From positions 1-64,000 of the forward strand of contig CAMNRM010000017.1 of NCBI GenBank assembly GCA_946553025.1: DNA of 64,000 nt. Reading direction: 5' to 3'. The notes under the pieces are model-generated. The model did no database searches. It had not been told where the DNA came from and saw only the letters and a list, made by a program, of their open reading frames with translations. The position numbers and the translations under genes are program-made. How positions within the stretch are numbered: position 1 is the stretch's first letter; every line of letters begins with the position of its first letter. The DNA comes from an uncultured Clostridium sp. GTDB taxonomy: Bacteria; Bacillota; Clostridia; Lachnospirales; Lachnospiraceae. Of this stretch, positions 1-5,966 are shown piece by piece.

Positions 1-28
1 AAAATTATTGTTCACAGCCGCAGGTTTT

Positions 29-55
29 ACAACATAATTTTTCTTATGTTGTAGA
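29..55 (+). repeat. Left inverted repeat of an invertible segment
   Basis: This is a 27-bp perfect inverted match to 267-293. The copy is itself a palindrome: ACAACATAA (29-37), a six-base asymmetric centre TTTTTC (38-43), then TTATGTTGT (44-52). Two inverted 9-bp arms around a 6-bp asymmetric core are the usual form of a tyrosine recombinase crossover site. The match ends at 28/294 and 56/266. Identity was read directly; the recombination role is inferred from the neighbouring recombinase gene. Confidence 0.85.
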
Positions 56-205
56 GAAAAGATGAAACAGCATAAAAACATTAAAAGTTTATTTCAACAT
101 GCGGATTTATTGAAAAATAAGCACACAAAAAAGACAGTGTAAGAATACAAACTTATCTGAACCGTAACCCTGTCATCTTATAGGTCTAATAATTGTAAAA
201 ATAAC

Positions 206-234
206 TTGCAAAAAATCAGGTTTTCCTGTATAGT
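206..234 (+). promoter_or_regulatory. Sigma-A promoter inside the invertible segment, pointing right
   Basis: TTGCAA (206-211), a 17-bp spacer, then TATAGT (229-234). In the orientation given it fires rightward, through the right repeat and antisense into the 3' end of the recombinase gene. After inversion it would fire leftward, out of the window. A weaker leftward candidate, TTGAAA (complement of 92-97), 17 bp, TATGCT (complement of 69-74), lies at the other end of the segment. Confidence 0.7.
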
Positions 235-266
235 ACATTTATGTATCTTCAACCACTGCTTCCTAA

Positions 267-293
267 TCTACAACATAAGAAAAATTATGTTGT
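267..293 (-). repeat. Right inverted repeat of an invertible segment
   Basis: This is the exact reverse complement of 29-55, so the asymmetric six-base cores point at each other. Crossover between the two sites would invert the 211 bp between them rather than delete them. It ends seven bases after... inside the first bases of the recombinase 3' end (the gene stops at 285), so inversion leaves the recombinase coding frame unchanged apart from bases that are identical in both sites. Confidence 0.83.
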
Positions 294-1142
294 CAGGATT
301 AGACGCATATGATTAAGCTGCCTCGCGTGCACTGTTCCGGTTTCAACAGTATAAATCCGGGTAGTATTGACACTGGAATGTCCTAAGATATCTGCCAGCC
401 GGGATAAGTCTTTTTTTAGCGAATAATACGTCCGCGCAAACAGATGACGCAGGTTGTGCGGAAATACTTTGCCAGGTGTTACTCCTGCACTTTCACAAAG
501 GGCTTTCATATCCCGCCAGATATTGGAGCGGTCAAGAGGTTTTCCTGTTCGTGTCACAAACACCGATCCACCGGTGTTTTTTTGTTTTTTCAGAAATTTT
601 TTTAAAAGCCTGCACAAATTTTCCGGAAGAAAAACTGTACGCCATTTCCCCTTATTACAAACCTGAGCACGTCCCCGCTGCACAGCCTCCGCGGTAATAA
701 ACGGCAGTTCGGATATCCGAATACCAGTGGCACAAATCGTCTGGAGAAGCAAAGCCAAACGTTCATTGCCCTGGTGCTGAGCAGCATTTACCAAACGAAC
801 ATATTCCGCACGGGTCAGTTCCCGGCTTTCATCGCAAAACAGAGGATGCTGTATCTTTAACAAACGTACAGACAGCCCCTGCCATCCCATAAACTGAAAA
901 AAACTGTTTGCTGCTGCCAGCATAGAATTAACGGTAGAAGGCGTATAGATAGTTACCAGATGTTCTTTCCATTCTATTAAACTTGATTTCGCCAGCGGCC
1001 TGCCATCCAGAAAAACAAATAAACAATTTAAATCGTGAATATATTTCTGGATGGTATTCCGGGCCCGCTCCTGCTCAAAGAGATAGTTTCTGTACTGTTC
1101 TATTTGCTTTGGAATAAATTTATAGTTTTTCTGCTTCTGCAT
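285..1142 (-). CDS. Tyrosine recombinase, probable DNA invertase
   Basis: Site-specific recombinase of 285 aa in the XerC/XerD-type integrase family, with an N-terminal SAM-like core-binding domain (about 10-90) and a C-terminal catalytic domain. All catalytic residues are visible: Arg142 in ATGIRISEL, a Lys at 164/166, His229 and Arg232 in HNLRH, His255 in GHSS, and the nucleophile Tyr264 in TRIYT. Length is typical of a simple recombinase with no phage arm-binding domain. An AGGAGG-like site precedes the ATG. The stop codon lies inside the right inverted repeat of the 29-293 segment, which is therefore its most likely substrate. It probably inverts that promoter segment; a general Xer role is less likely given the location. 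Confidence 0.9.
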   Translation of the reverse strand: MQKQKNYKFIPKQIEQYRNYLFEQERARNTIQKYIHDLNCLFVFLDGRPLAKSSLIEWKEHLVTIYTPSTVNSMLAAANSFFQFMGWQGLSVRLLKIQHPLFCDESRELTRAEYVRLVNAAQHQGNERLALLLQTICATGIRISELPFITAEAVQRGRAQVCNKGKWRTVFLPENLCRLLKKFLKKQKNTGGSVFVTRTGKPLDRSNIWRDMKALCESAGVTPGKVFPHNLRHLFARTYYSLKKDLSRLADILGHSSVNTTRIYTVETGTVHARQLNHMRLILTT

Positions 1143-1298
1143 GAAAATTCCTCCTGGTTTTTGATACCCTTATTGTACCAAGCCAGAAAAAATTTATTCC
1201 TGCCTTTCTCTATAGCTGCTAATATGAACAAATTTCTTATGTAAATGTCAATAACTGGTATTTGCCCAATACGAACCAAATCTAAAGCTTTCCGACAG

Positions 1299-4200
1299 TT
1301 ACCCCTTTCTCTTAAATTCCACATCTTTATGCGGATACCTTGCCTTAAACCATAACCATTCCTCATCGAACATCTTACAATTCCTACTTTTTTCCAAAAT
1401 CCCCCTCAGTTTTTCTCCGACATCAAGAATATTATCCACATCCTCACTGCAGATATCTCCATGGATAAGTCCAAAAACTATCGATAGTAATTCTTCCCTC
1501 TCTTTATTCTCATTCTCCTCTTCTGTGCTGTTCCTTTCTTTCTCCGATGCATAGCTATACCGATTCCAAAGCGCCCAGGAAATCTTCCCCTGAACTGTAC
1601 TCACCAGAGAAAGCACATATAAAACGAATGCATCCCTCTCCCAGCCTGCGCTTAAAAACAGCTCTGCACATTCTTTCAGCTTTTTGCCAAACCAATCTGC
1701 GTTTTCCCGTTTTTTCTCCTGCGTCTTCCTCTGCCCATCCTCTTGTGCATTCTCCCACGCTTTCCCTTCTGCAGCCTCCCCTCTGCTTTCCTTATCTTCA
1801 CTCCCCAGACATTCTTTTAGCGCCTTTCTGCAAAGTTCCCATCCTTTTTCCCGCGCCCTGTCCTTCTCCTGCAGATTTTGACAGCAGCGGATGTGTTCTA
1901 TCGCCGGATACCAGTAATCATCAAACCTTCCATAATCTTTTCGGCAATACTCCGGAGTAAGTACAGAAAACAGCCGCTGGTAGCAGAGGTCTTCCATCTT
2001 ATAATTATCCAGACTATGATAGTCCCACGCAGCCTCTTTCCAGAGTTCTATCTCCTCGCTTTCTTTCTTCCCCACAGCCTCACGTTCGGCCAGAAGAAAG
2101 TAATTGCATTTTCGTTTGACTTTTTCTGCCTCTTTCCCATCGAAGGCACGATATTCATAGAATCTTCCCAGGGTCTTATTCATCCGGTTGTACAGATATT
2201 CATCCTCCATCCCGCTTTCCTCGTAAATCATCCTGGCTCTTAAGGCATAATCCAGCATCCTTGCTTCATCCTTCGATATTCCATTCATCAGACATTCACT
2301 GTAGAGGATAAATGCCATCACCTGATATCGTTTAAAACTTACTATTTCTTCACCAATTCCCCCTTCATCAGAATTTTTTTCACAAGCTTCTCTCTCCTCA
2401 ATCTCTTTTTCGCAAATCTCCAGAATATAATCCAGAAACATCCCCGAAGTTTCCCCGTTATACCCTGTTTTCACTCTCTTCATACCGGCAAATGCCTCTT
2501 TTATCTTATCCTCTGCACTTTCCCGCCTATCTGCAAATGCAAGTAAAAACTCAGGAAAATCCTCCGAAAGCTCCTCCTGTTTTGAAATTCCTGAAAAGTA
2601 CTTTACGGCACAATCCCAATATCCCTGTTTCTTCTCTTCGTCCTCTTCAATCTTATACAGCCAGTAATATCCCAGGGTCAGCCACTGCAAATGATCTGCA
2701 CCAGCATTCCCCCCTTCTTCTCCTCGATACCTTTCTCCTTCCTCAAAAACAGGAAAAATTTCTCTCTCGTGAACATCAATCAGTTCCCTGCTGTACTTCC
2801 TGGCCTTTTCCGTCTGCTGCTCACTTATCAGCAAATAGATTAGCTGGCCGCTGACATAGCTGAAAAATCCAATATTTGTTTCTTCTGCCCATTTGTTTCC
2901 TTTATTTTCTTCTCCGCTTCCTTCCCCATCTTCAGCGCTTCCTTCCCTGTCTTCTCCCCCATTACCTTTTTCCATCTCCAGTACACGCACAAAACAGCTT
3001 ATTGCCTTTTCTTTCTCTCCCATCTCCCGGTAAAGACGGCCAATCTCATAAAGATTATCCTGTACACTGATTGCTTCCTCCCCTTTCACCCCCATTTCCT
3101 GGTGAATTTCCAGGGCCTTAGTATAATCTCCCTGCATTTCTGCAATTTCTGCCAGATCATCCAGGAAGATATCCGATACATGAAAAACCTTATCGTCCGT
3201 CCCCCGAAGTTCATTGATAAGTTTCTGATAATGCCAGGCTTGATCGGCATCGGCATAGTGTTCAGAGCGATACATTGCCGCGAAATCATTTTCACCGAAA
3301 AATCCCTGCATTTTTTTCAGAAGCTTTATTTTCTCTTCCTTTTCCATTTCTGCCAAAAGCAAAAACTCCTCGGCTTCCTTAAACAGCGCCACAGCCCTGT
3401 CCAGAATCCCGTCCATCGAAGAATTATCCTCCTCAATTCCCATAAAAACGGAACTGCTGGCTACCACCTCATCCAGTTCACAGCCCAGCTCCACACAGAA
3501 TTTCCCCAGATAATCCAGAGAACTGCTGCAGATTCCTGCAAAATAGCGGGCCTTGTCCGCCTGTTCCATAATTTCCTCTGCCTTCTGCGCCAGATACCCC
3601 TCTTCGCTGAAACCATCTCCTTCTTTCTCAACCTGCTCAAACCAGTCGTCATCAAAAGCTGCTGTTTCTATCTTTATCCGGCAGATTTTCTGCAAAAAAT
3701 CATTGGCCCGGGATTGATTTTCCTTATCGCTTCCTTTATCCAGATGATCTCCATACCCCAGAGATCTTCCCTTATCCAGCCCTTCTTCCAGGCAAATCCT
3801 CTCTGCGGTATCCAGATATTCCCTTTTTCTTTGAATATTTTGGCAGTAATTCACACACAGGCCCGCATAATCCAGGTTTTGTCCCTGTATCCTCTCCATA
3901 AAACCCGTTACCAACTGCCTGCGCACCATCGTTTCTGCATGGTTTGCCATGGTTCTGCAAATATAAACATTCATCCCCCGGACAATGTGCGGACAGTTTT
4001 CGGCTGTCGGCGCAAGATAACGGTAAACCAAATCCAGGATAATCTGATGGAGCGACAGTTTATCTTTTTCTTCATCATATTCCACCCAGCCGCGCTGTAT
4101 CAGCAGCTGCAGTTCTTCTCCTCCATGTTCCACCGGGCAGCAGGAAAGGAACATTTCCCGCGAAATACGCACATAGCCCAAAAGGGACAGACTGCGCATC

Positions 4201-5966
4201 AGCTCACCCTGTACTGCGGAAAACCCGGAAAGGTCAAACAGAGCCAGAAGATGGCGGTTCATGCTTTCCGCCCGAAGCTTCCTGTCTTTCCTGTGCTTTA
4301 TCCCGATTTCCTCTGTGCTGGTAATCCCTTCTTTCTGCATCAGTTTTTCCAGAAATTCTCCCGGATCGCCATCCGTTATCCGCAGATATTTGGCAATCAG
4401 CGTGATCGTCATGGTGTGCCGGTCAATCAGTTCGATTATTGATTTCACGGCTTCTTCGGACCTTTTATCTTCTATCTGCGGATGATAAAGCTTAAACAGT
4501 CCAAGCAGTTCCTCCATATCCTCCAGTTGATCCACCTCAAGCTGTTCATAGCCAAAATCCCGAAAATCTTCGCGGGAAGTTACTAAAAACGGACACGGAC
4601 AGGCAGCAAACAATTCTTCCAAATCCTCATCATAATCCACATCAAAATTATCTAAAATAATGAAATCTTCCGGACAGACCACTGTTTTAAGAATTTCCAG
4701 CTTCCTCTTAAAATAATCGTTATTGTCCTCGTTTTCTCCCTGTTCGATCTTATGAATCCGCAGTTCATTGCCGCACACCGTTTCGCGGATCGAAGTGTGA
4801 AAGGGCAGAAATACGATTTTTCGATACTTCCGTTGATTCATAAAAGCATAATACCTGGCCAGTTCGGTTTTTCCGATTCCGCCGATTCCCGATAAAAATA
4901 CGATCTGCTGTCCCTGAGAAAACAATTCCCCGATCCGTTCAAGTTCCCTCTCCCGCCCGATAAAGCCGGAAAAATGATAGGAAAAATGATGGAATAAAAA
5001 TACCCCCTCAATATCCGAAAGCCGGACTAATTCTTCCAGCGCAGAAATCACCTCATCTATGCACGGATAACGGCAGATTGCGGACAAAGCCACCGTCTTA
5101 TGCAAAAATACATCCAATGCGGCAAACAGTTCCGGTGAATAGCGTTCATCCCAAAACTTCTCCTGTAAATCCGACGGAAAATGATAAACCTTCCCCACAG
5201 TCCCATCCACCGCATCCGGCGTTCGGCCAAATAGTTTAAAAAACAGCACTGCTCCCAGAGAATAAATATCCGTCGCTTCCCCTATCTTTTTTTGCCTTCC
5301 CTGCACCAGTTCCGGCGCAGAAAATCCGTCCGAATAAGAAAACTTTTTCTTCCTTCCCCACCGCAGCTCTTCCTTTTCCGCCAGAGAATCAAAATCAAAC
5401 AGTTTTATCAATTCCCTGGTTTCCGGAAGCAGCAGGATGTTCTCCAGCTTAATATCCAGATGAAGAAATCCAATACTATGATATTTTTTGATTATCTTTG
5501 CCAAAGCCAGCATCCGGATAAATAAAGACTGCAGGTTTTCATCCGCGTCCTGCCGGTAATCCGCGCCCTCCGCCATATCCATCACCACATAGAGCGTACC
5601 ATAGCAGGAAAATAAATGCATCGCATCCACTGTAGAATTGATCAGCCCCAGCGTATGCTTAATTTCCACATTCTTCGCATAGGCTTCCCTGAATTTCTGC
5701 TGTGCCTCAAAAAACGCCTGTTCAAAAGATGGTTTCACACAAAGCCGGCCATCTTCTTCCCGTTTCAGTTCCAGATAATAAGGATAACATTCCTTCACCC
5801 GCACGATATGCCTGTGCCCCTCCAAATCTGCATACCATGCGCTGTACACAATACAGCTCCCTCCCCGCCCGATCTCTTCGATAATCGTATAGCTTGTCCG
5901 GAAAACGCCCTCTCCTTCCAGGATTAAAACACTCCCTCGGCCAAGCGCCCTGCGGCAATCCAGCAT
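1299..5966 (-). CDS. Ser/Thr protein kinase fused to NB-ARC-type STAND ATPase and helical repeats
   Basis: A 1555-aa protein with three parts. The N-terminal eukaryotic-like kinase domain (about 25-310) has a glycine loop at EIGRGGSC (31-38), a probable ATP-binding Lys58, the catalytic loop HLDIKLENI (169-177; Asp171, Asn176), DFD in place of DFG (191-193) and APE (217-219). A STAND ATPase follows (about 340-620): Walker A GIGGIGKT (360-367), Walker B IILDN (436-440) and a sensor-like TSRED (463-467). The remainder is helical, TPR-like and very Glu/Lys-rich. Kinase and STAND families are known for stress, immunity and regulated signalling; the target here is unknown. A clear AAGGAGG precedes the ATG. 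It is co-directional with the recombinase gene 156 bp downstream and divergent from the gene at 6179. Confidence 0.85.
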   Translation of the reverse strand: MLDCRRALGRGSVLILEGEGVFRTSYTIIEEIGRGGSCIVYSAWYADLEGHRHIVRVKECYPYYLELKREEDGRLCVKPSFEQAFFEAQQKFREAYAKNVEIKHTLGLINSTVDAMHLFSCYGTLYVVMDMAEGADYRQDADENLQSLFIRMLALAKIIKKYHSIGFLHLDIKLENILLLPETRELIKLFDFDSLAEKEELRWGRKKKFSYSDGFSAPELVQGRQKKIGEATDIYSLGAVLFFKLFGRTPDAVDGTVGKVYHFPSDLQEKFWDERYSPELFAALDVFLHKTVALSAICRYPCIDEVISALEELVRLSDIEGVFLFHHFSYHFSGFIGRERELERIGELFSQGQQIVFLSGIGGIGKTELARYYAFMNQRKYRKIVFLPFHTSIRETVCGNELRIHKIEQGENEDNNDYFKRKLEILKTVVCPEDFIILDNFDVDYDEDLEELFAACPCPFLVTSREDFRDFGYEQLEVDQLEDMEELLGLFKLYHPQIEDKRSEEAVKSIIELIDRHTMTITLIAKYLRITDGDPGEFLEKLMQKEGITSTEEIGIKHRKDRKLRAESMNRHLLALFDLSGFSAVQGELMRSLSLLGYVRISREMFLSCCPVEHGGEELQLLIQRGWVEYDEEKDKLSLHQIILDLVYRYLAPTAENCPHIVRGMNVYICRTMANHAETMVRRQLVTGFMERIQGQNLDYAGLCVNYCQNIQRKREYLDTAERICLEEGLDKGRSLGYGDHLDKGSDKENQSRANDFLQKICRIKIETAAFDDDWFEQVEKEGDGFSEEGYLAQKAEEIMEQADKARYFAGICSSSLDYLGKFCVELGCELDEVVASSSVFMGIEEDNSSMDGILDRAVALFKEAEEFLLLAEMEKEEKIKLLKKMQGFFGENDFAAMYRSEHYADADQAWHYQKLINELRGTDDKVFHVSDIFLDDLAEIAEMQGDYTKALEIHQEMGVKGEEAISVQDNLYEIGRLYREMGEKEKAISCFVRVLEMEKGNGGEDREGSAEDGEGSGEENKGNKWAEETNIGFFSYVSGQLIYLLISEQQTEKARKYSRELIDVHEREIFPVFEEGERYRGEEGGNAGADHLQWLTLGYYWLYKIEEDEEKKQGYWDCAVKYFSGISKQEELSEDFPEFLLAFADRRESAEDKIKEAFAGMKRVKTGYNGETSGMFLDYILEICEKEIEEREACEKNSDEGGIGEEIVSFKRYQVMAFILYSECLMNGISKDEARMLDYALRARMIYEESGMEDEYLYNRMNKTLGRFYEYRAFDGKEAEKVKRKCNYFLLAEREAVGKKESEEIELWKEAAWDYHSLDNYKMEDLCYQRLFSVLTPEYCRKDYGRFDDYWYPAIEHIRCCQNLQEKDRAREKGWELCRKALKECLGSEDKESRGEAAEGKAWENAQEDGQRKTQEKKRENADWFGKKLKECAELFLSAGWERDAFVLYVLSLVSTVQGKISWALWNRYSYASEKERNSTEEENENKEREELLSIVFGLIHGDICSEDVDNILDVGEKLRGILEKSRNCKMFDEEWLWFKARYPHKDVEFKRKG

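Follow-up and report, generated by a model that had tools for sequence, protein, structure and literature searches.

A 265-base segment at the left end of the 64,000-nucleotide stretch of DNA analysed here (the window, from an uncultured Clostridium sp.) lies beside its own recombinase gene and very probably flips, switching the neighbouring adhesin operon on and off; other clostridia have related switches. The reading of the locus as an invertible promoter (phase switch) beside its tyrosine recombinase, made in the initial annotation, is supported by the target operon, by relatives of the locus and by a branch in the assembly graph, and is the best reading of it, with the ON orientation and the change in expression as the parts that we infer.

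Inverted repeat, crossover sites and recombinase

The initial annotation had described a perfect 27-bp inverted repeat of 9-6-9 form enclosing 211 bp, which a repeat search over window positions 1-3000 confirmed. The two 27-nt arms are complementary at 27/27 positions (100%) with a spacing of 211 nt, as in an inverton, where inverted repeats bound a short segment (Table 1). No rival inverted repeat was found in window 1-3000, the runners-up being one of 27 nt at 74% and one of 15 nt at 93%. Each arm contains ACAACATAA-6-TTATGTTGT, and the exact core ACATAA-6-TTATGT is confined to the switch locus in its own genome. The recombinase gene lies beside the right repeat as annotated; however, its stop codon (285-287) falls inside the repeat, so the gene overlaps the repeat and does not merely adjoin it. 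The same site form was found in the relatives, in many of which the first site overlaps the recombinase end (relative position -6).

The Phage_integrase match of the recombinase (PF00589) scores 94.4 bits against a curated cut-off of 27.1. The catalytic residues R142, K166, H229, R232, H255 and Y264 are all present, each conserved in 89 or 90 of the 90 aligned family rows (alignment without L042, L047, L051, L071, L072, L074-L076, L078 and L079, and without Hungatella copies that have a stop or are ≤260 aa long). The sequence is similar to the solved chains 4a8e and XerD 1a0p. It is the single family member in its genome, the next best protein being 28% identical, and a DNA search of window 1-1200 against 60 relatives gave partial recombinase matches in five. 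A serine invertase was rejected, as the domains are those of a tyrosine recombinase. The protein also falls outside FimB/FimE (NCBIfam scores of 24.8 against a cut-off of 221 and 24.7 against 222) and outside XerC/XerD (equivalog scores of 102.6 against 335.15 and 110.4 against 329.6). Just upstream of the recombinase gene, positions 1299-5966 (- strand) encode a 1555-aa protein with matches to a kinase domain, AAA_16 and TPR.

Table 1. Coordinates of the switch and its target operon (window positions unless contig C27 or L006 is named)
Feature	Position	Strand	Description
Left inverted repeat, crossover site	29-55	+	arm 29-37, spacer 38-43, arm 44-52, plus 3 bp
Invertible segment	56-266	no strand	211 bp, 29% G+C
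Terminator-like element	127-174	-	GACAG/CTGTC stem (174-170 with 137-133), then T6
Predicted sigma-A promoter TTGCAA-17-TATAGT	206-234	+	aligned -35/-10 pair in 8 other group rows
Right inverted repeat, crossover site	267-293	-	arm 270-278, spacer 279-284, arm 285-293
Tyrosine recombinase, XerC/D-like	285-1142	-	285 aa; Phage_integrase 8.5e-27, SAM-like N domain 8.5e-9
Adhesin	C27:58534-62664	-	ATG 83 nt from contig end
Hemerythrin-response regulator	C27:57170-58537 (L006:11171-12538)	-	hemerythrin and response-regulator domains

Target operon

The genome consists of 126 contigs. Contig C17 begins with the window, whose positions 1-55 recur as the terminal bases of contig C27 (62692-62746). 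The target operon, said by the annotation to lie outside the window, was thereby found on C27, left of position 1, and the surface gene expected there proved to be a co-directional LPXTG-like adhesin. This protein has 1390 aa in the listed frame, or 1376 aa if counted from the ATG downstream of an AGGAG Shine-Dalgarno sequence. Its matches to SpaA (45.2 bits, cut-off 23.1), Collagen_bind (37.6, cut-off 27.5) and the isopeptide-domain model TIGR04226 (39.7, cut-off 30) are those of a Cna/SpaA-type surface protein. By eye, the N-terminus shows a hydrophobic start after MKRWITNH, and the C-terminus an FPKTG sorting-like end with a hydrophobic stretch and a basic tail. The gene of the hemerythrin-response regulator overlaps the adhesin end by 4 nt, and the gene order on one strand is recombinase, invertible segment, adhesin, hemerythrin-regulator. 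Placed directly after the adhesin, the hemerythrin-response regulator might sense oxygen or iron and be controlled by the same switch.

Paired sites and reversed segments in relatives

When one genome per species was scanned, 66 related loci were obtained, in which genes were called as longest open frames. Together with our own these make 67, of which 10 with <350 bp downstream were excluded, leaving 57 testable. The region just past the recombinase was searched for two 24-bp dyad sites in inverted orientation whose 6-bp spacers are identical. Such pairs with 6/6 spacer identity were present in 52/57 testable loci (our own included), against 0/359 control places, obtained by the same search at 7 shifted positions. 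The five loci with no site pair are L021 (an N run downstream), L030, L047, L070 and L079 (25% identity). Because this first search had used the spacer, it was repeated with the arms alone; a site on both sides was then found in 43 non-redundant loci, and the spacers were identical at 6/6 positions in 42 of them. The exception, L028, has an earlier-found pair with divergent arms. Between loci the spacers vary, with 30 kinds in 46 loci and identity in 31 of 1035 pairs.

Homologous segments in reversed orientation were found for L053/L055 (99.2% over 237 bp), for L046/L076, two Anaerotruncus colihominis strains (87.9%), and for L026/L028 (77%); two weaker reversed pairs are L038/L043 and L054/L078. 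The other homologous pairs are same-oriented, including the whole Oscillibacter-like group with our own locus. The annotation's expectation that related genomes would show the segment reversed is thus borne out in some relatives, whereas the nearest, the Oscillibacter-like ones, all have one orientation. In L053/L055 the inner half-sites (TTATGTATT, TTATGTTGT) are swapped along with the segment, but the outer half of site 1 is unmoved, and therefore the crossover lies between the arms; at the far end of L055 a third site complicates the picture. L024 and L025 differ in a 41-bp unit between two sites, which has moved to the opposite end and been flipped; two inversions involving three sites would account for this.

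More than two sites were found in 10/52 loci. Three crossover sites are present in L014, L024, L025, L035, L036, L039, L041, L055, L061 and L076. Given such three-site switches and the moved unit in L024/L025, more than two states are possible.

Promoter, hairpin and direction

The sequence TTGCAA (206-211)-17-TATAGT (229-234) exists on the + strand as annotated. Its description as a strong promoter is unsupported by the window sequence alone, because promoter-like sites in window 1-1400 are at chance level (4, against 3.6 expected from shuffles). The best consensus match in window 1-1400 (10/12) is another + strand site at 11-38. On the - strand, TTGAAA-17-TATGCT at 97-69 equals TTGCAA-17-TATAGT in consensus match (9/12), and a further 9-of-12 site lies at 32-4 with its -35 partly within the left repeat.

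These - strand sites would suit a reversed logic, in which the assembled orientation is ON through TTGAAA-17-TATGCT, or the adhesin is transcribed independently of orientation from the site at the left repeat. The former site, equal in consensus, is slightly higher in the weight matrix (11.2, against 10.5 for TTGCAA-17-TATAGT in the opposite direction), and the latter might drive the adhesin whatever the orientation. Against this stands the alignment of our segment with 8 Oscillibacter-like segments, which represent about four independent lineages. All of them conserve a -35/-10 pair with the same location, direction and 17-bp spacing, as TTGCAA/TATAGT in the window and elsewhere as TTGTCA, TTGTAA or TTGCCA with TATAAT or TATGAT, whereas the site at 97-69 is not visible in this own-group alignment. 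In addition, among 46 non-redundant segments the promoters face the recombinase more than the cargo (24 against 5, with 17 ambiguous, our own among them, at a 3-unit score margin). The reversed logic is thus unlikely, although it is the most probable of the alternative readings considered.

As the scores at our own locus are ambiguous, the direction assigned to its promoter rests on homology. The annotated placement of the promoter antisense to the recombinase 3' end accordingly agrees with the homologues, while the matrix on our own segment slightly favours the opposite direction. After inversion, the -10 of the predicted promoter would lie at 88-93 on the - strand, towards the adhesin.

Across the 46 segments the best promoter score is 11.6 versus 8.4 in shuffled sequences (p=4e-12), and 25/46 are individually at p<=0.05. 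The best local hairpin is -15.1 versus -11.4 kcal/mol in shuffles and beats all 20 shuffles in 17/46 segments. The near copies L015, L017-L020 and L044 were left out of this promoter and hairpin analysis and of the per-locus matrix scoring. Strong local hairpins are thus a trend of the family, and the terminator-like stem of our own segment is weak. In the assembled orientation, this hairpin could block read-through from the recombinase into the adhesin.

Assembly evidence for both orientations

Both ends of 40 contigs (80 ends) were compared for shared terminal stretches. Three contig-contig overlaps were found, C27/C17 included, each of exactly 55 bases, as is typical of a de Bruijn graph built with k=55. 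Terminal stretches of 51-55 bases are common to other contig-end pairs. The C27/C17 overlap is made up of 28 bases unique in the genome and the whole 27-bp repeat. The two contigs break exactly on the inner edge of the repeat, which places the branch point of the graph at the segment's first base. This implies indirectly that reads of both orientations were present for this genome. No SSU rRNA match was found in the assembly, so the genome may well be a metagenome bin, in which case the two orientations might stem from different cells or strains.

Contigs of 4/66 relatives (L023, L060, L066, L075) stop at, or one base past, the first 24-bp site, and 6 further relatives' contigs end ≤150 bp from the recombinase with no fit to the first site. 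Runs of N were found inside 5/34 Hungatella segments. Judged from these contig ends and N runs, assemblies seem to tend to break at these switches.

The single orientation in all own-group loci compared is what would be expected of a locked, formerly invertible promoter, with sites intact and a recombinase that is silent or inactive. The 27/27 identity of the repeats and the intact catalytic residues argue against it, as does the branching of the graph at the edge of the repeat, and we regard a locked promoter as very unlikely.

Cargo genes and probable transfer between families

Fifty proteins from 33 relatives' loci were scanned for domains. The surface proteins among the cargo carry SpaA/Cna_B, SLH, LRR_5-dockerin and camelysin domains; the signalling proteins include chemoreceptors, CheW, GGDEF/EAL, PilZ, a hybrid histidine kinase and Hpt; Tad-type pilus parts and Wzz were also found. 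At the threshold used, ten of the 50 were without a match. In some loci the nearest gene that runs in the same direction is far off or metabolic (L041, L045, L067; L046). The cargo of the Oscillibacter-like group comprises response-regulator-GGDEF, PilZ, adhesin and sortase (L016).

The recombinase could also be the integrase of a degenerate mobile element, its repeats being remnants of attachment sites with no switch. It has the Phage_integrase domain, a ParB_N gene and a serine recombinase lie downstream in L038, and L040 has a gene of similar sequence start. Such a remnant is hardly credible in view of the matched-spacer pairs kept in 52/57 loci, the segments seen reversed, and the surface, chemotaxis and signalling genes that come next in many loci. 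An excisive element was rejected, as the sites are inverted and would therefore give inversion, not excision.

The recombinase and adhesin at our locus resemble proteins of another bacterial family. The adhesins of L016, L022, L025 and L044 are 58-62% identical to our own over about 1050 residues. The adhesin frame is short or interrupted in the near relatives L015, L017, L018 and L019, and long in L016, L022, L025 and L044. The recombinase is 75% identical to that of Oscillibacter sp. 1-3 and 74% to that of strain 1xD42-67, and at best 61% to Hungatella hathewayi and 65% to [Clostridium] asparagiforme. A recombinase tree (built without L017, L018, L020, L044, L074-L076, L078, L079, L051 and L071) places the window within an Oscillibacter-type clade (SH-aLRT 96, quick method). 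The rpoB of our genome is 89% identical to that of H. hathewayi, 88% to [Clostridium] aerotolerans and 87% to [C.] asparagiforme, and 65% to strain 1xD42-67 and 64% to Oscillibacter sp. 1-3 (the latter over 1041 residues). Because recombinase and adhesin resemble Oscillospiraceae proteins while rpoB is nearest to Hungatella and its kin, the two genes probably moved between families together, judging from these sequence identities.

Switch arrays in Hungatella hathewayi

Within the bacterial family of our organism, a member of the recombinase family at E<=1e-60 was found in 19/120 sampled genomes (our own included). The own-family genomes G063 and G080 have 9 and 6 recombinase-family copies, and H. 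hathewayi WAL-18680 (G156, L222-L257) has 36 matches at E<=1e-60. A site pair follows 34/36 of these recombinases (control 0/288), with 21 different spacers; no pair was found at L256, and L249 has one site, then N. Several of the loci lie 11-18 kb apart in arrays, and many head paralogous operons. A signal-peptidase-like gene is common to 28/36 loci (2 scanned, 2 matched), a giant protein family of up to 3786 aa occurs in 29/36 (GLUG motif in one of three scanned), and two families of small secreted-looking proteins occur in 28 and 23 of the 36. The exact promoter TTGCAA-16-TATAAT is present in 31/34 segments, in 30 of which it faces the recombinase and in one (L252) the cargo. The recombinase match of L252, the sole locus with the common promoter facing the cargo, has an internal stop.

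Among 29 array loci (analysed without L225, L243, L252, L254 and L257), between-locus identity is 0.99 for the outer arm, 0.61 for the spacer and 0.74 for the stretch before the site. When pairs were binned by the similarity of the surrounding segment, the spacers were less similar than the segments, at 0.65 versus 0.73 (0.7-0.8 bin, 172 pairs) and 0.57 versus 0.67 (0.6-0.7 bin, 107 pairs). Diversifying selection on the Hungatella spacers is not shown by these values, as some close pairs have equal spacers.

We tentatively suggest, as an idea somewhat short of even confidence, that the family is a portable 'barcoded' switch cassette, in which the arms are shared and each copy has a private 6-bp spacer, so that many switches could coexist with little cross-recombination. 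The cassette would consist of the recombinase gene, a site overlapping its stop codon and a promoter-terminator segment, with the spacer identical within a pair and often different between copies. H. hathewayi WAL-18680 would be the extreme of this arrangement, with 34 switches, 21 spacers and 30/31 common promoters OFF. A promoter in the OFF state, running antisense into the recombinase gene, might latch OFF.

Proposed switching mechanism

Based on the site anatomy, the operon and the relatives, we propose the following switch. The tyrosine recombinase would act at the two 24-bp sites (arms ACAACATAA/TTATGTTGT) flanking the 211-bp segment, and strand exchange within the identical 6-bp spacers would flip the segment. 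The segment is predicted to carry one promoter, probably TTGCAA-17-TATAGT, with the terminator-like hairpin behind it. In the OFF state, as assembled, the promoter would point right and run antisense to the 3' end of the recombinase gene, with the hairpin possibly shielding the adhesin from read-through. In the ON state, upon inversion, the promoter would face left, with about 110 nt separating it from the adhesin start codon downstream, and would serve the LPXTG-like SpaA/collagen-binding-type adhesin together with the overlapping hemerythrin-response regulator. We consider this full account likely, namely a self-contained phase-variation switch, including a promoter direction in which the assembled orientation is OFF and the inverted one ON for the adhesin operon.

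The locus offers a concrete and testable on/off switch of an adhesin in a clostridial genome, linked to a family whose parts (arms, spacer, promoter, hairpin and recombinase) can be read from the sequence. The family provides natural sets of inversion sites that share their arms and differ in the 6-bp spacer. Such sets bear on the question of how dozens of switches can share a bacterial genome without recombining with one another, and might be used in synthetic memory circuits. The locus also suggests that an adhesin has moved between bacterial families along with its own switch.

Comparison with known systems

In E. coli fimS, the tyrosine recombinases FimB and FimE act at short inverted repeats and invert a promoter whose target is an adhesin. 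The present switch would work alike; its enzyme is a 285-aa XerC/D-like protein with an N-terminal SAM-like domain, far below the FimB/E cut-offs. It is similar to XerC and XerD over nearly the whole length and has the same catalytic residues, but it scores below their equivalog cut-offs, and XerC/XerD act at the chromosomal dif site whereas our recombinase has local inverted sites. RecV acts from elsewhere in the C. difficile genome, whereas in the present family the recombinase lies in cis at each switch, overlapping or abutting the site.

The available parts of the reports on C. difficile RecV and related switches describe systems that are likewise clostridial and inverted by a tyrosine recombinase (PMC5903667, PMC9286219, PMC2784873), with targets including surface proteins, chemoreceptors and c-di-GMP enzymes (PMC5903667, PMC9286219, PMC2784873). 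In the part of PMC5903667 available, clostridial inversion sites lie near chemotaxis and signalling genes, and RecV is needed for several C. difficile switches. Among the literature matches listed, no title or abstract start concerns an LPXTG-like target, the spacer rule or the Hungatella array, which is not a claim of absence from print.

The closest published counterpart comes from the hCom2 gut community (Microbiome 2025, PMC11892184), whose main text, as far as available, contains none of the words LPXTG, sortase, Hungatella and hathewayi. The accessible part of that paper describes inverton group 139 with invertase group 35. Group 139 comprises 33 invertons, 32 of them of class Clostridia, 'nearly all' near a tyrosine-type recombinase of one group, and their change of orientation was seen in reads; from two coordinate sets given there, repeat lengths of 25 and 13 bp and intervening lengths of 206 and 228 bp can be derived (PMC11892184). 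Our switch fits this group in size, class and recombinase adjacency, and its family is possibly the published group 139/invertase group 35, as far as the available part of PMC11892184 describes it.
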